Both the position numbers and the translations under genes were made by a program. Below are positions 42,189 to 50,320 of a DNA stretch of 64,000 nucleotides, piece by piece; the first letter of the stretch is position 1, and each line of letters begins with the position of its first letter. Below the pieces are notes generated by a model. The model was not told the DNA's origin. It saw only the letters and a list, made by a program, of their open reading frames with translations, and made no database searches. This DNA comes from Emticicia agri (GTDB taxonomy: Bacteria > Bacteroidota > Bacteroidia > Cytophagales > Spirosomataceae). The DNA lies in NCBI RefSeq assembly GCF_004168285.1, contig NZ_SEWF01000012.1, positions 62,001-126,000 on the forward strand. Reading direction: 5' to 3'.

Positions 42189-45100
42189 ATGAAGCTCGTC
42201 AAGCAGTCAAAGTTATTCTTCAAAGAAGGCAATTCTGATAAAGTTTATGAAATAGACTTATGTGAGGTTGGAAGTAATCAATACGTCGTAAATTTTCGAT
42301 TTGGTAAGCGTGGCAGTACCCTGAAAGAAGGTACCAAGACAGATAAACCTGTTAGTCTGAATAGCGCCCAACAGGTTTTTGACACCCTGGAAGCTGAAAA
42401 ACGCCGCAAGGGTTATCAGTCAGAACAGGAAATGTTTCAGGCATTGCCAACGCTCGCAGAATTAGCTTCTACAGCCAGTATTGAAAATGCCCTGCTGAAA
42501 AGATTACAGGGTTTTATTGATGGCAGAAACCCACTCAAATCTCAATGGAAGCCCTCAAGGGTTATCTGGAAAGTCGGGGAGTTAAAACTCAAAGAAGCAG
42601 TACCTTATATTATAAGACTGACCGACAGAGGCGACGAAATGCAAAGATATACCGCTTTGTGGGCTTTAGGTCGCATAAGCGATGCAGCGGCCATTCAAAC
42701 CCTGAAATTCTACTTTTCTAATCCCAAATACTCTGATAAAGTCCGTCGCATTGCAGGTGCATCATTATTGCAGATGCTCACCGGCGATGAACGAAAAGAA
42801 CATATTGCTTTTTATACCGAACGTTTACCGGAAGATTTAAAAACAGCGATTCAGAATCCGGCAATTTTACAGGAAATTCTTCCTCAGAAAGTCTTACAGC
42901 AAACACAAACCACTTATGATTTTCTGGAAGACCTCTATCTGATTTCGGTTGAGTATCCGGCTATTAAACCCATCCTAATAAACCTACTGAAAGAAATTCC
43001 ATTGAAGCCAGGCTATTTCAGGGCTGTGAGGCATATTCTGAAAATAGCTGAACTTAGAGACGATTTTGAGGTATTGGGTCTGCTTTCCTACCGATTTGAA
43101 AGAACACTGCAGATGTTTGATAAGCCTGTGAGCTACGGGTATGACGATGAAGAAAGCCGTGAGAGCACCCTATACGTAACAGCAATTGGCAAATCTGTAA
43201 AGGTAAAATCGGAACTCAAAAAAAATGACAGCCGATTGGCTTATTCAGACAGAACAAGGGGCTATCTGATTCGCAAGTCCTTACGATTACTGAAAGAATC
43301 GGGGGCTAATCAACAAGACGAATATATAAAATTAGCCTTAGCGATTTTACTCTCTTATGATTCAGAAAAAGATTATAGAGACGGGTATTCAAGAGACAAT
43401 TTCCGATATTTAAACAATTATCAGAACTGGGAAAATGTCCGTACTTTTTACCCGCCTTATGCCAATGCGGTTTTAATGAATCTCATTCTGTACGGTGGTG
43501 GCACTCGATTGACCTTTGCCGGAAATGCCTGGGCACTTTCAGAAAAACAGTTGATTGGTTCAAGCCAACCGAATTTAGTCAGAAATACAGTTCAGCCCAA
43601 TCAGGAAAACAACCTGGTGAACAGGGTTTTTAACTCTATCTTCTCTTTATTTTCAAAGCCTGACCAACCCAATGACAGTTCCAATCGCCCGTCTATAGAT
43701 CAACAATTGGAACCTATGAAAACTGAAGTTGCCAAAATACGTCGGGAAGAACTCTATCCTGAATTATGGGATAAATTTCCGCAGGCTTATATTCAGCTTT
43801 TGCTGAAAGCTAAGGTTGATAATATACACCTGTTTGCTTATAAAAACCTTACACAGCACCCCGATTACGAAAAAATAAAAGCTAAAATAGACTGGCGATT
43901 ATTAGAACTGCTTCTTTCGTCAAAATATACACTTCCGGCTACCTATGGATTAGAGATTGTTAAGGAGAAACTGGAACAGAACGCCGAAAGAAGCATTATT
44001 CTTGCGTTACTGAACAGCCCTTTTCAGGCCGCAAGAGAATTGGGACAGGGATATATCAGTAAAGACTTAGCGGCTTATTTCAATGAAACAACTCTGTTGA
44101 GCAACCTGATTTTCTCTAAATATTCAGATGTAAGACAATGGGTAAATAAAACCCTAAGCACATATCCGCTTTCTGATAGCCAGAAACAGGTATTGGTTGG
44201 CAGAGGCTTAGGTCTGATAAATACCTTACAGGAAAATACGGAAGAGAACAATCTTATTATTAAAGATGGTACAGCAGTATTATTAAACGTTTGTGCAGAT
44301 TTACTGAAAGGACTCAATGACTCCATGATAGTTGACCTGCTCAAAACTCCTGTAGAAGCTACACAGGTTTTTGCCGTAAAAATCATCACCCTAAAAAATA
44401 CACAGCCACCTGCCGAAATTTTATCTTCATTGCTGATAAGCCCGTTTGAACAGGTACGCAAAGCCGGAGCCGAATTGTTGAGCAAATTAAAAGAAGTACT
44501 GGCTACAAATAAGGATTACGCTACCGGATTAGTCAACTTCCTTGTCCCTTTCATGACCCGCAAAGAGCCGTATGAGGGGCTGCATGAAGACATCAGAAAA
44601 ATTCTGACTCATCAACTGGTGAATTACCTCCAGTCTGTTGATAGTACTACCATTATCCGGTTGATTCATGCCAATTACAGACCTGCGCAGGATTTGGGAC
44701 TGGTGTTGCTCAGACAATATATAAACCCGGATATACTCACTATCAGACATATTATCGACATTGGCAATCATGAAATGATAGCCTACCGTGAATGGGTATG
44801 GAGCTTTTTTAACGAGTCTGTGGCTCGCATTAAATATGAAAGAGACGAGGCTATTCGCCTGTTAGACTCCAAATGGGACGATAACCGTGCTTTTGCCATT
44901 CATTTCTTCCGTACGAATTTCACACAGGACGATTGGAGCCCTGAAGTATTGGCAGGTATTGTTGATAGTGTGAAACCAGATATTGAAGCCTTTGGTCGGG
45001 AGTTAATCAGCAGATTTTTTGATGAAGAACAGGGAGAAGAATATCTGCTTAAACTCAGCCAGCACCCAAGTGTCAGTGTACAATTATTTGCCACTAATTA

Positions 45101-45416
45101 CCTGCAAAGATTTGCCACAGGAGATGCCAGTAAATTAGCCGGCCTTGCCACCTATTTCCGTTCTGCCCTCACAAGGGTCAACAAAGGCAGAAGTGCTAAA
45201 GCAAGAATATTTGCTTTTTTACATCAGGAAGCCATGCAGTCAGCCGAAGCAGCAGAGATAGTTGCCGATATACTAAGGGATATTTCTGCAACCGTATCAA
45301 TAGAAGACAAAGCCATTTGTATAACCATCATGCGAGATTTGCAGAAAAAATACAATAATTTATCTGTGCCGATTAAGGTACTTGATTTCCCGACAAAAGC
45401 AGTAAACGTTCATTAA
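42189..45416 (+). CDS. WGR-domain / HEAT(ARM)-repeat protein, retron accessory
   Basis: 1075 residues. A WGR domain occupies residues 1-80 (KLFFKEGNSDKVYEIDL, then VNFRFGKRGSTLKEGTKT). In PARP-type proteins WGR domains bind DNA or RNA ends. Residues about 110-200 are HEAT repeats (EAVPYIIRLTDRGDEMQRYTALWALGRISDAAAIQTL), and about 560-1050 is a second long alpha-solenoid (FAYKNLTQHPDYEKIK; EQVRKAGAELLSKLKEV). No nuclease or ATPase motif is visible. It resembles MolR-like WGR/HEAT proteins and, by context, the ARM component of type XIII retrons as I recall them. First gene of the operon; 14 bp to the next. Confidence 0.8.
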   Translation: MKLVKQSKLFFKEGNSDKVYEIDLCEVGSNQYVVNFRFGKRGSTLKEGTKTDKPVSLNSAQQVFDTLEAEKRRKGYQSEQEMFQALPTLAELASTASIENALLKRLQGFIDGRNPLKSQWKPSRVIWKVGELKLKEAVPYIIRLTDRGDEMQRYTALWALGRISDAAAIQTLKFYFSNPKYSDKVRRIAGASLLQMLTGDERKEHIAFYTERLPEDLKTAIQNPAILQEILPQKVLQQTQTTYDFLEDLYLISVEYPAIKPILINLLKEIPLKPGYFRAVRHILKIAELRDDFEVLGLLSYRFERTLQMFDKPVSYGYDDEESRESTLYVTAIGKSVKVKSELKKNDSRLAYSDRTRGYLIRKSLRLLKESGANQQDEYIKLALAILLSYDSEKDYRDGYSRDNFRYLNNYQNWENVRTFYPPYANAVLMNLILYGGGTRLTFAGNAWALSEKQLIGSSQPNLVRNTVQPNQENNLVNRVFNSIFSLFSKPDQPNDSSNRPSIDQQLEPMKTEVAKIRREELYPELWDKFPQAYIQLLLKAKVDNIHLFAYKNLTQHPDYEKIKAKIDWRLLELLLSSKYTLPATYGLEIVKEKLEQNAERSIILALLNSPFQAARELGQGYISKDLAAYFNETTLLSNLIFSKYSDVRQWVNKTLSTYPLSDSQKQVLVGRGLGLINTLQENTEENNLIIKDGTAVLLNVCADLLKGLNDSMIVDLLKTPVEATQVFAVKIITLKNTQPPAEILSSLLISPFEQVRKAGAELLSKLKEVLATNKDYATGLVNFLVPFMTRKEPYEGLHEDIRKILTHQLVNYLQSVDSTTIIRLIHANYRPAQDLGLVLLRQYINPDILTIRHIIDIGNHEMIAYREWVWSFFNESVARIKYERDEAIRLLDSKWDDNRAFAIHFFRTNFTQDDWSPEVLAGIVDSVKPDIEAFGRELISRFFDEEQGEEYLLKLSQHPSVSVQLFATNYLQRFATGDASKLAGLATYFRSALTRVNKGRSAKARIFAFLHQEAMQSAEAAEIVADILRDISATVSIEDKAICITIMRDLQKKYNNLSVPIKVLDFPTKAVNVH

Positions 45417-45430
45417 ATTCCACATAAACT

Positions 45431-46876
45431 ATGACCAAAACCTATCTTGAATTATCGGAAGAGCAAGGCTCTGCCCATAAATTTTATGAAGTAACCATCG
45501 ACGACGCCAATACTGTATCCGTCAGATTTGGCAGAATCGGCGATAGCGGACAATCGCAAAGCAGTTCGTTTGCTACCCTTACTGAAGCACAGGCTTTTGC
45601 CGACAAAAAAATAAAAGATAAACAGAAAAAAGGCTATGCGGTTGCTGTTCAGGGGCAAGGTCAGAAACGTTCCATTACCCGAAGAGCCGTGGAGAGTCGC
45701 CCTGCGCAAATCAAATATAGCTTACCTATTGTCTGGCGTTTTAAAACCGAATCATCGGCTTTTGGCGTGTATGTTGACGAAAGAAGTTGTTGGGTAGGTA
45801 ATGAAAAAGGAGACGTGTTCAGGCTGAATCATACCGGAGAAGTAGATTTACACCACCGCCTGCCTGATGGGGTAAAATGTATTGTAGCCGATAACGACTG
45901 GATTTATATAGGTTGCGATGATGGCAATGTATATGACCTGACCGGAAAGAGGCCAAGGTTATCTTACGAAATTCAGGAGAAAATAGAAATCTACTGGTTA
46001 GATATTAACGATGGTTTGTTGGGAGTATCAAGTGCCAATGGTTCGGCCACTGTTATCAACTACGAAGACGAGGAGCAATGGAGCAACAAACAAGATGGCA
46101 CAGCGGCCTGGATGATGCGTTGCGACGACCGTGGCAAAGTATTCTGTGGGGATTCGGTGGGAATTGTGTGCTATAATGGCCCTGACGGACGATTTGAATG
46201 GAAAACTCCTACTGAAGGGGCAGTATTATTCGGCTGGATTCAGAATAACAATATCTATGCTGCCACAGGGCGTAATATGGTGCAGGCTTTCTCAAAAGAT
46301 GGAACTCATCTGAAAAACTATCGTACTGATGCAGTGGTATATTCCTGCGCTACATCGCCTGACGGTGCTTATATTTTTGCCGGAGACAATTATTCTTCTA
46401 TCTATTGTTTTGATGAAGCAGGCAATCGTCTATGGAAATTAGCCTCGGGTTGCGGTTCGGCCTTATCTATGCAATATTTCAATGAGCATCTGTACATTGT
46501 AACTACCGACGGCTCTATTGCTTGTATTGATGCCAGACAGGAATCTATTACACAGGCACAGGCAGGTGTATTACCGCAAGTAAAAGATGTGAAAATTGCT
46601 GCCACACAATTGTCAGAAGCAATGGCTTTGAGCGATACGGCCATTGTAGAAACAGCTGCCGCCAATGCCACAGGTATATTGGTGAAATGTATAAAAGAAG
46701 GTAGCAGCCTTCGGGTGAAACCATTGAGTGATGGGTATCATAAAGACTGGTACGTACAGTTCCCTAAGAACCTTCGGGAAGAAAATGCCATTTACATTGT
46801 TGATGATTTAAGAGAAGCCACCCAGGGAGGATTCTATAGAGTTTTTGGGAATATCCTAAAATATAACCAGAATTAA
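45431..46876 (+). CDS. WGR-domain / beta-propeller protein, retron accessory
   Basis: 481 residues. The N-terminal WGR domain (1-75: YLELSEEQGSAHKFYEVTI, VSVRFGRIGDSGQ) carries a lysine-rich end. A WD40/PQQ-like propeller follows from about 100 to 375, with repeated blades such as CWVGNEKGDVFRLNHTGEVDLHHR, WIYIGCDDGNVYDLTG, YIFAGDNYSSIYCFDEAGNRLWKL and LYIVTTDGSIACIDARQ. The last 100 residues are a separate small domain. It looks like a recognition or scaffold protein; no enzyme motif is seen. It begins 14 bp after the HEAT gene and ends 2 bp before the SWIM gene, so translation is probably coupled. Confidence 0.8.
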   Translation: MTKTYLELSEEQGSAHKFYEVTIDDANTVSVRFGRIGDSGQSQSSSFATLTEAQAFADKKIKDKQKKGYAVAVQGQGQKRSITRRAVESRPAQIKYSLPIVWRFKTESSAFGVYVDERSCWVGNEKGDVFRLNHTGEVDLHHRLPDGVKCIVADNDWIYIGCDDGNVYDLTGKRPRLSYEIQEKIEIYWLDINDGLLGVSSANGSATVINYEDEEQWSNKQDGTAAWMMRCDDRGKVFCGDSVGIVCYNGPDGRFEWKTPTEGAVLFGWIQNNNIYAATGRNMVQAFSKDGTHLKNYRTDAVVYSCATSPDGAYIFAGDNYSSIYCFDEAGNRLWKLASGCGSALSMQYFNEHLYIVTTDGSIACIDARQESITQAQAGVLPQVKDVKIAATQLSEAMALSDTAIVETAAANATGILVKCIKEGSSLRVKPLSDGYHKDWYVQFPKNLREENAIYIVDDLREATQGGFYRVFGNILKYNQN

Positions 46877-46878
46877 TT

Positions 46879-48519
46879 ATGCTATTCAATTATAAATACG
46901 GCGGTACTACTTCGGTAGTAAGTAATGCAAATTCCGTCGGAATGTCTTTTGCGCCTGACACCTTAAGAGAACCTACTTTTTTTGTAGGCAAACTGAATAA
47001 AAAAATTGCATTCAGAGAAGCCATATCAGCATTGCACGATGTGGTGGTATCTGATATGCGGTTTAAGCCTAAAGATAAAACCGCCTATAAAGAATGGGCG
47101 GCTCAACAGGAAAAAATCTGGCTTTCGGAGTTTGTAGCCGATTTGCAGATAGAAAGTGTGAAAGAGCGCATGGCGGTAGTAAGAGAAGAACTGCAACAAA
47201 TCTATAAAGAAAGAAGCAGAGTAACAGGCCCTTTTCAGACGGCTACCAGACAGTATTTCGATTTTCTTTATCAGAAAGACAGAGACCGCTGGTTTGTGTT
47301 AGACCCGGTAATTACGGTTCATCCTGACGAGGTTTTCTTCGAGTGTTTCAGTCAGGACGAATCGACTTATGGGAAGTTAGAAACCAATTATAATGTCTTT
47401 AAAGAAATCAATGAGTTTGAATGTGGCACAACCAATATTGATTATTCATCAGCCTTATATAACGAGTTTCAGAAGATAAGAGAATATAAAGAGACTGATT
47501 TCAAGATAGACCCTTCAGGGTTTACGGTAAAAACCACCAACGAAGAAGAATATAAAGAGGTAAAAATTGATTTGCCCGATAGTTGGGTACGTGGTTTTTT
47601 ACAGGTAAGTTCGGCTATGACGTTACCCACTACCAGTTTTGAGCTTCATCCGATGGATGTTTATAATATCTGTCTTTTATTACGGCGGTTCAAAGAAAAA
47701 GTAGGGCCTCGCTCAATCAAATTTATTTTAAGACCAAACGAACCCGTAACCCTGCTTTTTGAACCCTTTAATAAAGAAATTATCTGTGCAAGGTCTGTTT
47801 ATACCGGAAACGAAGTTAAAACTATCAGAATCTGGGGCAGACGACGCCTGTTGATTCTGGAAAGGCTGATTCCGGTTGCCAGAAAATTCACGGTGTATCT
47901 GGTAGGTTCGGGGCTCCCCTCTTTTTATATTGCAGATTTAGGCGATATGACCTATACATTGGGTTTATCGGGCTGGTCAGCCAACGACTGGTCAAGAGTC
48001 GGCAATTTTGACCTGATGGCTCCAAGAGCCGAGGTAGATGGTTTTACAGCACAGAATATCTATAATGCACTTAGGGAAAACTGGTTTGAAAAACCAAAGG
48101 CTCTGGCTAAAAGACTGAATACGGATACCAAAACTGTATTCGGAGCTTTGGGGACATTCACACAGGCAGGTAAAACCATTTATGACCTAAATCAAGGCGT
48201 GTATAGAATCCGAGAATTATCAAGAGAACCTCTGCCAATTCATCAGTTACGCTTTGATAACCCCAGAGAAGAGCAGGCGAATACGCTGGTAAAAGAAAAA
48301 AAAGTACAAATCAGTACAGAAAAGACCGCTCAAGGCTTATCTATTACCGGAAACATCAAAGGACATTACCGTAATTTCAATGCGTCGGTATTCATTGATA
48401 ACGACGAGCGGATTGCCCAGGCTACCTGCAATTGTGAGTTTTATATCAAAAACAAACTTTACAAAGGACCCTGCGAGCATATTATTGCCTTGCGGATTGA
48501 GCAAAGGCAAAAGCAATAA
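46879..48519 (+). CDS. Winged-helix + SWIM zinc-finger protein (WHSWIM), retron accessory
   Basis: 546 residues. The SWIM zinc finger is at the C terminus: Cys517-x-Cys519 (ATCNCEF) and Cys532-x-His534 (GPCEHI), the CxCx(n)CxH pattern of nucleic-acid- or protein-binding SWIM domains. A winged-helix segment precedes it (about 395-445: YNALRENWFEKPKALAKRLNTDTKTVFGALGTFTQAGKTIYDL). The N-terminal 380 residues are unassigned, with a helical region about 85-130. The combination matches the WHSWIM protein I recall for type XIII retrons. The gene ends 53 bp before the a1 repeat of the msr-msd RNA. A DNA-binding or msDNA-sensing role is inference. Confidence 0.8.
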   Translation: MLFNYKYGGTTSVVSNANSVGMSFAPDTLREPTFFVGKLNKKIAFREAISALHDVVVSDMRFKPKDKTAYKEWAAQQEKIWLSEFVADLQIESVKERMAVVREELQQIYKERSRVTGPFQTATRQYFDFLYQKDRDRWFVLDPVITVHPDEVFFECFSQDESTYGKLETNYNVFKEINEFECGTTNIDYSSALYNEFQKIREYKETDFKIDPSGFTVKTTNEEEYKEVKIDLPDSWVRGFLQVSSAMTLPTTSFELHPMDVYNICLLLRRFKEKVGPRSIKFILRPNEPVTLLFEPFNKEIICARSVYTGNEVKTIRIWGRRRLLILERLIPVARKFTVYLVGSGLPSFYIADLGDMTYTLGLSGWSANDWSRVGNFDLMAPRAEVDGFTAQNIYNALRENWFEKPKALAKRLNTDTKTVFGALGTFTQAGKTIYDLNQGVYRIRELSREPLPIHQLRFDNPREEQANTLVKEKKVQISTEKTAQGLSITGNIKGHYRNFNASVFIDNDERIAQATCNCEFYIKNKLYKGPCEHIIALRIEQRQKQ

Positions 48520-48537
48520 ATAAATTAGATTAATCTA

Positions 48538-48567
48538 TTTGTAAACAAAAACAATTCAACTATTTTG
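48538..48567 (+). promoter_or_regulatory. Candidate promoter of the retron ncRNA
   Basis: TTTG (48538-48541), 19-nt spacer, TATTTTG (48561-48567), followed by CAACA. It has the same elements and spacing as the promoter at 42124-42153. Transcription would begin 6-8 nt downstream, at about 48573, which is the first base of repeat a1. This supports an independent ncRNA start. Confidence 0.55.
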
Positions 48568-48572
48568 CAACA

Positions 48573-48802
48573 GCAAAGTGAGAAGTACTGAATACCTTGC
48601 ATTCCGAAAGGAAAGAACGATGTATCGTCGTTCATGACACAAGACTTCACACGCATCACTAAATACAATCTTTACTGTGAGGGGGGCTACTATAATACCT
48701 TTTACAGTAAAAGCTCCGGGAGCTTAAAAGGTATTATAGTAGCCCCCCTCTTGGAGTTGATTGATTTAGTCTGGAGTACCATCGAAGGTTTTCTCACTTT
48801 GC
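48573..48802 (+). ncRNA. Retron msr-msd non-coding RNA
   Basis: About 230 nt. Repeat a1 is GCAAAGTGAGAA (48573-48584) and a2 is its exact complement TTCTCACTTTGC (48791-48802). The msr part has two stem-loops: TTCC-GAAA-GGAA (48602-48613) and GAACGA/TCGTTC (48615-48633). The msd part is a perfect 25-bp hairpin, 48679-48703 with 48726-48750, containing a G6/C6 run at its base, topped by an inner hairpin AAGCTC-CGG-GAGCTT (48711-48725). The G just after a1 (48585) is a candidate branch nucleotide. The reverse transcriptase gene begins 15 bp after a2. The order a1-msr-msd-a2-RT is that of known retrons. Exact RNA ends and the extent of the cDNA are predicted only. Confidence 0.87.
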
Positions 48803-48817
48803 CAAATTAACCCTGCT

Positions 48818-50320
48818 ATGACTGAACGTCTTACCCGCCAGGAAATCTACGACCGCATACGTGCGACCTCCAGAGATGAGTTTATCCTTTCAGAAATGAA
48901 AAAATTAGGATTCTGGCCTTCTGATGAAGAAAAGCCCAGCGTATCCGAACAGTTAATCAAACATGAAGGCGAACTCAGCCGTGAATTGCAGGAGCTTTCT
49001 CAGAAACAAAGAAAATTTGACAATCAACAGGCTATGCTTGCTGAAATGCGGAAGGCAAGAATGGCGGCTGCCAAGAAAAAGCGTGTAGAAACCAAAGAAA
49101 AAAACGAGCAGAAGCGGAAAGACAAAGCCGAGCAATGGAAACAGCAGAAGCAAAATGAGATTGTTTACCTGGGCGAAGATGTTTCACACGAATTAAACAA
49201 CACCGAAGCAGATACCGCTAAACTGGCTCAATTCGGGCTACCTCATTTTGCAGATGCTTTAGCTTTGGCAACTGCCATGAATATCAGTTTAGGGAAACTC
49301 CGTTTTTTAGCCTACAACCGCAAAGTTTCTACTACTACCCATTACAAAAGATTTTATCTGGCAAAAAAAACGGGTGGCAAACGGTTGATTTCGGCACCTA
49401 TGCCTAAGCTGAAAGAAGCTCAGTACTGGATATTGGATAACATTCTGTATAAACTCAAAAATACCGACTCGGCGCATGGGTTTGTGCCTCAGCGTTCAAT
49501 CCTTACCAATGCCAGCAATCATATCGGGCAGGATGTAGTCATTAATATTGACCTGAAAGACTTTTTTCCATCAATAGATTACAAACGCATTAAAGGTCTT
49601 TTTGCTGCGTTAGGCTATTCAAAACAGATTGCCTCTATTCTAGCGCTTGTCTGTGCAGAGCCAGACGTGGACATGATTGACATAGACAAGAAAACCTATT
49701 ATGTAGCCCATACCGAGCGAAAACTCCCACAGGGAGCACCCACAAGTCCGGCCATCACTAATCTTATCTGCTACAAATTAGACCATCGCTTTGAGGGTAT
49801 TGCCCGTAAATTCAATTTCAACTATTCCCGCTATGCCGATGATATTACGTTTTCAGCCAAAGGAGACGGTAAAAAACTGGTAGGTCAGGTATTATGGGCT
49901 ATCCGTCAGATTATTGAAAGCGAGGGTTTCCAGATTCACCCTGATAAACTGGCTGTGATGCGCAAAGGCAGACAGCAGGAAGTAACAGGTATAGTAGTAA
50001 ATGATAAACCTGGTATAGACCGCAAAGAATTACGCAGATTCAGAGCATTACTACATCAGATTGAACTTAATGGTACAGAGGGAAAATCGTGGAGAAACGG
50101 GGTTGATTTAGAAAACTCCATGCGAGGTTATGCCAGCTTTGTAGGCATGGTAAAACCCGAACAAGGCATTCAATTCAAGGCGCAATTAGATCAGATTTTT
50201 GGAGTGAGGGCTAAAGTGAAACCAGTTCCTGCCCCTGAAATTAAGATAGTTCCTCCAACTATTCAGGATACCCCACCTAAGCCTGACAATGATGAAAAAC
50301 CCTGGTGGGAAATCATTTAA
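48818..50320 (+). CDS. Retron-type reverse transcriptase
   Basis: 500 residues. The retron-specific marks are complete: NAxxH motif in region X (NASNH, 231-235), catalytic Asp245 (INIDLKDFF), LPQGAPTSP (303-311), YADD (339-342) and the VTG triplet of region Y (389-391). The RT core is about 140-465. An unusual N-terminal extension of about 130 residues contains a long Lys/Glu/Gln coiled coil (about 45-115). The last 35 residues are a Pro-rich tail ending WWEII. It makes msDNA from the adjacent msr-msd RNA, probably as part of an anti-phage tripartite system with the three upstream proteins. The ATG is 15 bp from a2, so it is translated from a transcript that also contains the ncRNA. Confidence 0.93.
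   Translation: MTERLTRQEIYDRIRATSRDEFILSEMKKLGFWPSDEEKPSVSEQLIKHEGELSRELQELSQKQRKFDNQQAMLAEMRKARMAAAKKKRVETKEKNEQKRKDKAEQWKQQKQNEIVYLGEDVSHELNNTEADTAKLAQFGLPHFADALALATAMNISLGKLRFLAYNRKVSTTTHYKRFYLAKKTGGKRLISAPMPKLKEAQYWILDNILYKLKNTDSAHGFVPQRSILTNASNHIGQDVVINIDLKDFFPSIDYKRIKGLFAALGYSKQIASILALVCAEPDVDMIDIDKKTYYVAHTERKLPQGAPTSPAITNLICYKLDHRFEGIARKFNFNYSRYADDITFSAKGDGKKLVGQVLWAIRQIIESEGFQIHPDKLAVMRKGRQQEVTGIVVNDKPGIDRKELRRFRALLHQIELNGTEGKSWRNGVDLENSMRGYASFVGMVKPEQGIQFKAQLDQIFGVRAKVKPVPAPEIKIVPPTIQDTPPKPDNDEKPWWEII

Follow-up and report, generated by a model that had tools for sequence, protein, structure and literature searches.

Does the run of inverted repeats in front of a reverse transcriptase (RT) gene of Emticicia agri encode the msr-msd RNA of a retron, and of which retron type? 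We addressed this question in a window of 64,000 nucleotides (nt), the whole stretch of DNA that was analysed; all window features given below are on the forward strand. A sequence-only reading had proposed that the msr-msd RNA of a retron and the cognate RT gene lie here. Its observation is confirmed nearly to the base and its interpretation is supported. We conclude, with a probability of about 0.97, that the locus is the RNA-RT unit of a type XIII retron.

The msr-msd non-coding RNA as a whole extends from 48573 to 48802, as judged by base-by-base reading, its fold and a covariance-model match. At its ends are a1 (48573-48584) and a2 (48791-48802), described before as a perfect 12-bp repeat; re-reading of the same coordinates gave 12/12 complementarity, with 206 nt between the repeats. 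In the MFE fold, ACCTT (48594-48598) pairs as an inner part of this stem with AAGGT (48785-48789), which belongs to the CGAAGG conserved in the alignment. Due to this pairing, the a1/a2 stem, after an internal loop, terminates immediately 5' of G48599. An excerpt of PMC6868368 places the priming guanosine of retrons inside the a1/a2 stem or just 3' of its end. The position of G48599, directly 3' of the stem, fits this rule and makes it the candidate priming (branch) guanosine; the TTGC that contains it is invariant among 21 aligned RNAs (alignment A3).

Two msr stem-loops follow, both at the places given by the sequence-only reading: a small one, TTCC-GAAA-GGAA, read directly from the sequence (48602-48613), and a conserved one of 8 bp (48615-48633), which is present in the MFE fold and corresponds to helix 2 of the consensus. 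Beneath the msd hairpin, the folded window RNA has a middle helix of 12 bp; its 5' strand (48658-48670) comprises consensus helices 3 and 4, and its 3' strand (48759-48770) agrees with the MFE fold and the consensus pairing. The msd hairpin (48679-48750) has arms at 48679-48704 and 48725-48750, and its helices 5 to 8 covary. Its stem is indeed perfect, with a length of 26 bp instead of the 25 bp counted before. CAGT (48705-48708) follows the 5' arm and precedes the small apical hairpin (48712-48716 with 48720-48724), which is present as described and has about 5 rather than 6 bp. Folding of 48573-48802 yielded -98.2 kcal/mol, compared to a mean of -50.95 (SD, 4.5) for shuffled sequences; with a z score of -10.5 and none of 200 shuffles equally good, the fold is therefore far beyond chance. 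Just 5' of a1, TATTTTG (48561-48567) resembles the -7 promoter box of Bacteroidota and could set the RNA start near 48573.

To find out how widely this RNA occurs, we collected relatives of the RT from 98 related genomes, from 395 genomes of the window's phylum and from genome_contigs, where the best 80 of 470 candidate stretches encoding an RT relative were used. A hairpin scan with a single-base-shuffle null served solely to find candidates. Covariance model R1 was built from the 21 aligned RNAs of A3; its consensus has 47 pairs, 37 of which show two-sided changes among these 21 sequences. When R1 was run over 92 sources (1.42 Mb), 94 matches of 190 to 217 nt were obtained in 77 sources (weakest E value, 1.9e-13), and all 94 were located upstream of an RT, on its strand. 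In the window, which is among the training sequences, the match comprises 48591-48791 and scores 170.2 bits. A covariance search upstream of homologous RTs had been suggested along with the original observation; it detected the RNA at 69 of the 80 RT_XIII loci (best 80 of 470). Since 16 of these 80 were training loci, the held-out count is 53/64, or 53/61 without L053, L077 and L084, which have less than 250 nt upstream. The loci are not all independent: some sources, such as L008/L079, represent one organism fetched twice, and several held-out loci are closely related to training loci, as L066 and L074 are to L064.

Could such a hairpin lie before an RT gene by chance, as an unrelated palindrome (a terminator, an insertion-sequence end or a repeat)? 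Perfect palindromes of 26 bp can arise otherwise, and Rfam 15 gave no match above the gathering score in the 64-kb window and only sub-threshold ones, such as mir-2985, in 48450-48850. Against this stands the compensated same fold in 77/92 sources, always upstream of the RT and on its strand, while R1 has a single match in the window's own 6.65-Mb genome and none in 34 control loci of other RTs. We regard an unrelated palindrome as extremely unlikely. In the 395 genomes of the phylum, scored with stricter filters and few candidates each, R1 matched in 5 and not in 390; those 5 are five of the six phylum genomes with RT_XIII above 500 bits, and the sixth, G371, is divergent.

The pairing itself was evaluated in 91 distinct sequences. 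Paired cells amounted to 95.7%, in contrast to 65.4% after shuffling and 34 to 44% after sliding, and covariation was 0.779, in contrast to 0.194 and 0.09 to 0.13, respectively; the 91-row alignment was fitted to the R1 structure, and the pairing figures lean that way. Two-sided changes were found at 43/47 pairs. By helix, the paired cells in alignment A4 were 95.1% (helix 1), 98.8% (helix 2) and 94.5 to 95.2% (helices 3 and 4). Of five measures, one, the number of further pair types, was 118 and thereby below every one of the 500 shuffles (mean, 131.2), in which letters are mixed freely. The repeats a1 and a2 lie outside R1. In 81 of the 98 copies (the 94 R1 matches plus four more), they pair over 8 bp or more, compared to 6% with shuffled partners. 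Alignment A6 excludes L069 and L119.

By record title, the R1 matches come from Bacteroidota, Pseudomonadota, Cyanobacteria, myxobacteria, Verrucomicrobia, Acidobacteria and others, several of these labels being from MAG bins and possibly wrong. The RNA is conserved across several bacterial phyla. The 15 of 92 sources without an R1 match are L004, L005, L011, L035, L053, L060, L068, L077, L084, L085, L087, L096, L103, L116 and L121. Among the best 80 of 470 loci, 11 had no match at the RT: 3 have less than 250 nt upstream, 6 have the RNA elsewhere in the genome, and for 2 (L060 and L085) none was detected in the genome.

The type assignment follows from the genes around the RNA. The order on the one strand is WGR-HEAT, WGR-propeller, SWIM, msr-msd RNA, RT. 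A 1075-amino-acid (aa) WGR and HEAT-repeat protein (42189-45416; Pfam WGR and HEAT) matches the type XIII partner model WGR_XIII of PADLOC with 1102.8 bits. It is followed by a 481-aa WGR and beta-propeller protein (45431-46876; Pfam WGR, 64 bits, and propeller families), which we propose as a fourth partner, and by a 546-aa SWIM zinc-finger protein (46879-48519; PADLOC SWIM_XIII, 784.6 bits; Pfam SWIM). These three genes are separated by 14 and 2 nt. The 500-aa RT (48818-50320; Pfam RVT_1) matches RT_XIII with 620.7 bits, compared to 314.2 bits for the next-best PADLOC model. Since the RT_XIII, WGR_XIII and SWIM_XIII models match strongly and over most of their length, the locus is a type XIII retron. 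The type name stems from the classification of Mestre et al. 2020 in the form carried by PADLOC-DB 2.0.0. The upstream genes (42189-48519), which the first account of the locus had left out, belong to the retron and make it type XIII; the window differs from the type XIII definition in its additional WGR-propeller gene inside the operon.

Also with respect to the RT, the first account held: the ATG lies 15 nt after a2, and NASNH (residues 231-235), YADD (339-342) and VTG (389-391) are present. The retron RT motifs NAxxH and VTG are invariant in 16 aligned RTs; at YxDD, 14 of them have YADD and the other 2 have YVDD. Identity of the 15 other RTs to that of the window is 35 to 84%; the nearest named relatives are from Runella (62%), in keeping with a host from the Bacteroidota. 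An AF2 model of the RT shows a long N-terminal helix (residues 42-113) followed by the RT domain, the N-terminal helical extension comprising about 120 residues. The closest PDB chains are those of the Ec86 RT (1.4e-66), and the RT domain is shared with Retron-Eco1 (Ec86) and other solved retron RTs. The Ec86 RNA has an a1/a2 stem terminating at a guanosine, then msr loops and then the msd hairpin, a layout shared by the window RNA. The window retron differs from Retron-Eco1 in its N-terminal extension, its partners and the middle helix that joins msr and msd. According to the excerpt of PMC6868368, the usual context of the retron priming guanosine is TAGC, unlike the TTGC of the window, and an extended RT N-terminus, as in the window RT, is found in the myxobacterial retrons Mx162/Sa163; Mx162 differs in its msDNA of 162 nt and in having its priming G within CAGC. 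Myxobacterial records with type XIII retrons are L109, L127 and L130. Two plasmid records have RT matches at E ≤ 1e-50, in one case over 97% of the RT length, and eight phage records match 46 to 59% of the RT.

We also considered a decayed or inactive retron. All four operon ORFs are open and both the a1/a2 and the msd stems are perfect; moreover, a congener with 84% RT identity has the same operon order, and its msd stem, of different sequence, is still paired. Decay is thus very improbable, and an intact type XIII operon with complete RNA stems is, with high confidence, the best explanation as a whole. The locus is a further type XIII retron; what surprises are three features described below, namely the predicted clamp, the occurrence of tandem RNAs and the split layout.

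Which parts of the RNA are kept? Even across phyla, a scaffold is retained with variation: CCTTGC, one msr loop, CACT...AATC, GAGTTGA...AGTC and CGAAGG. Two landmarks of the sequence-only reading, the G6/C6 tract and the first small msr loop, turned out to be no general features of the RNA family, and of the G-rich stem it is the pairing and the overall length that are kept, not the sequence. In the core of the msd stem, 11 columns of the 5' arm carry only 0.01 to 0.28 bits, yet pairing is retained; the poorly paired cores in A4 (L106 and L107, 2/11 each, and one L007 copy, 3/11) were kept in the counts. We compared the core to the fourfold sites of the RT in 78 locus pairs with a scaffold identity of at least 0.84 and an RT identity above 0.6. 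In 61/78 pairs, the core was at least as conserved as the fourfold sites, and in 17/78 it was less conserved. For example, the window and L002 share 13/22 core, 66/163 fourfold and 117/127 scaffold positions, and L111/L112 share 22/22 core positions, compared to 0.69 of the fourfold sites; the opposite was seen for L102/L108 (0.27 versus 0.59) and for the window and L052 (0.18 versus 0.30). Because of the 61/78 pairs, we do not claim accelerated evolution of the stem, and diversifying selection was unsupported in those pairs. Two other candidates were dismissed: a stem motif, TACYAKA, noticed by eye in A3, proved weak when all loci were considered, with no column above about 0.3 bits, and a search for a host target of the stem with a 20-mer in the window's own genome returned the stem itself twice and one site with three mismatches (control, 1).

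We lean towards free drift of the stem, in which only double-strandedness and length matter, as for a shape sensor or a clamp seat, over a set of diversified sensors. Both the low information of the core columns under retained pairing and the comparison with the fourfold sites are consistent with this. The 17/78 pairs with a less conserved core point the other way, as does the strong core divergence of tandem copies within one locus.

Such tandem RNAs, two to four before one RT, were found in 12/77 RNA-bearing sources: L100 and L057 have four copies each, L055 has three, and L007, L009, L010, L062, L067, L082, L110, L113 and L115 have two each. Tandem copies share 61 to 99% of the scaffold (0.83 to 0.99 in 21/24 copy pairs and 0.61 to 0.78 in three) and 0 to 68% of the stem core. 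In 28/29 copies, 9 to 11 of the 11 core pairs are kept, the exception being a poorly aligned L007 copy with 3. Most copies carry their own a1/a2: the longest a1/a2 match averages 9.55 bp within a copy (n = 29) versus 5.83 bp across copies (n = 48), with a cross-copy match longer than the own one for at least one copy in L010, L055, L057, L062, L100 and L110. Tandem RNAs could be read as a repertoire of sequence-specific sensors in which the stem of every msDNA recognizes a different phage protein. Their recurrence, their own a1/a2 pairing and their similar scaffolds with dissimilar cores would suit such a repertoire. However, drift under a pairing constraint also explains the pattern, and the window has a single RNA copy; we consider a sensor repertoire improbable and retain free drift of the stem as the preferred reading. 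A literature search by title and abstract opening returned no report of tandem or multiple retron RNAs.

The SWIM protein is the most conserved partner, with 46 to 77% identity of 51 others to that of the window; the samples differ between the proteins, and the identity is 28 to 43% for WGR-HEAT (36 proteins), with the 35 to 84% of the 15 RTs given above for comparison. An AF2 model was obtained from 52 SWIM sequences (alignment A5, a subset of those found), with a pLDDT of 78.8 and a pTM of 0.75; residues 1-16, 18-28, 59-66 and 134-140 are below a pLDDT of 50. When this model was compared to the PDB by Foldseek, the best match was PCNA (E value, 1.0e-9), and ranks 1 to 6 were aligned over 242 to 251 columns. 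All of the best 50 of 1269 matches are clamps or clamp complexes, with mostly 3.2 to 5.3 rmsd, a TM score by target of 0.61 to 0.75 in 48/50 and a TM score by query of 0.30 to 0.37. In total, 478/1269 matches had E values of 0.001 or lower. Viral PCNAs were on top in a search of viral structures and, together with phage clamps, made up most of the named rows. Judged by secondary structure, the clamp part probably comprises residues 141-365 or so, followed by a winged-helix-like stretch and the SWIM zinc finger. Basic residues are present in 52/52 members at K199, R201, R238, R321-R323 and R329 and in 85 to 98% of the members at R269, R270, K272 and K274. They are located in or just past four predicted helices, K199, R201, K272 and K274 being beyond the helix ends. 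At the sequence level, no clamp was among the Pfam families listed for the 52 members (25 of 47), and a profile search against the PDB at E ≤ 1 gave two other proteins and no clamp. The predicted fold of part of the SWIM protein resembles that of PCNA or 9-1-1 clamps; the protein differs from them by the fused winged-helix-like stretch and SWIM zinc finger and has no detected sequence similarity to them. Based on the one AF2 model and the structure search, the clamp-like fold is likely to be real. Among the papers listed by a literature search, none linked a retron with a sliding clamp, SWIM or a PCNA-like fold in its title or abstract opening.

The WGR-propeller protein scores at most 16 bits (WGR_XIII) against the PADLOC type XIII models. 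At E ≤ 1e-20, it was detected in 7/98 related genomes: in 6 of the 11 with a near-full-length RT match and in 1 of the 87 others (G067). In the surrounding 18 kb of the latter (L136), no RT, SWIM or RNA is present. G002 has the same order as the window, from WGR-HEAT to RT; in G037, the contig ends inside the propeller gene, and the order is the same onward. Further loci have the gene near type XIII genes in varying order (L006, L052, L059, L100, L109, L125, L127 and L130) or adjoining the RT, with no SWIM gene in the stretch (L004, L005 and L068). It was not seen in most of the 80 genome_contigs loci (best 80 of 470). We propose that it serves some type XIII retrons as an accessory. WGR domains occur in PARPs, and the WGR of the propeller protein weakly matches PARP3 in the PDB (E value, 0.0042).

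What happened at loci where the RNA is not next to the RT? Eight of them, each with at least 365 nt upstream (L060, L068, L085, L087, L096, L103, L116 and L121), lack both an RNA match close to the RT and an intact SWIM gene in the surrounding stretch. The genomes of these eight and of L117 were searched with R1 and the SWIM protein. Both RNA and SWIM were found in 7/9 genomes, in six of the eight elsewhere than at the RT. For L068, L096, L103, L116 and L121, an RNA follows the SWIM gene at a distance of up to about 100 nt, outside the RT stretch; for L087, the two are on different contigs, and for L117, they are on one contig, 4.6 kb apart. The genomes of L068 and L087 contain a second RNA. 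In the L060 and L085 genomes, neither an R1 match nor a SWIM gene was detected. We therefore list L068, L087, L096, L103, L116 and L121, with the further stretches L140-L148, as split type XIII retrons. Within the reach of R1, the RNA and the SWIM gene are mostly either both retained or both lost, in support of the RNA as part of the system. Exceptions are the divergent L011 and L035, whose SWIM-like genes (38% and 34% identity) are not accompanied by an R1 match; in L055, the RNA is present and the contig stops before any SWIM gene. That the RNA and the SWIM gene lie apart from the RT gene in split retrons suggests that the RT of these retrons may act in trans. Within L085 (983-2386), similarity to SWIM covers residues 1-42 and is directly adjoined by similarity to the RT from residue 66 on; most of SWIM, the region of the RNA and the beginning of the RT appear to have been deleted. 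Another order, RNA-RT-(WGR-HEAT)-SWIM, was observed in L064, L066, L074, L078, L089 and L095, which are Flavobacterium, Pedobacter, Chryseobacterium and Bacteroides records.

How would such a retron work? The RT would bind the RNA, start synthesis at the 2'-OH of a guanosine immediately inside the a1/a2 stem (candidate, G48599) and copy the 3' part from about 48784 toward and through the msd hairpin. The product would be a branched RNA-DNA with roughly 110 to 130 nt of DNA, carrying the perfect 26-bp stem. By analogy with established retron biology, the retron very probably makes msDNA. According to an excerpt of PMC12548924, RT, RNA and RT-DNA restrain a toxic effector until a phage trigger. 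By analogy with these retrons in general, RT, msDNA and partners would assemble into a complex in which the partners stay inactive; once a phage perturbs this complex, the released partners would stop growth or replication. An antiphage role is probable, given the type membership. Our literature search turned up no study of the mode of action of type XIII retrons; in an excerpt of PMC11953036, the type is named in a PADLOC call for a Variovorax strain.

In the division of roles that we favour, the SWIM protein, with its predicted PCNA-like fold and its conserved basic residues, would wrap or ring duplex DNA, at rest the msDNA stem and once released other DNA, and the two WGR proteins would bind DNA ends or scaffold the complex. 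That the predicted clamp acts on the msDNA stem is tentative and less likely than not. Still more speculative, and rather unlikely as a whole, is the idea of type XIII retrons as clamp-based sensors, in which SWIM would form a PCNA-like ring or half-ring on the msDNA stem, phage attack or titration would free it, and the freed clamp would seize replication. A clamp reading the shape of the duplex would explain a stem kept in pairing and length and nearly free in sequence, and a clamp-based sensor would explain why RNA and SWIM gene are retained together where the RT gene has moved. One RT could serve several tandem RNAs.

A model of the type XIII RNA may already exist within PADLOC, which, according to an excerpt of PMC9252829, has its own msr-msd covariance models. 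What is gained here is a covariance-tested RNA model with defined parts and a conjecture on the structure of the most conserved partner. Two layouts, tandem RNAs and an RT unlinked from its RNA, lend themselves to direct tests. Retron RNAs serve as genome-editing tools, and a scaffold that tolerates almost any stem sequence could be useful in genome editing.
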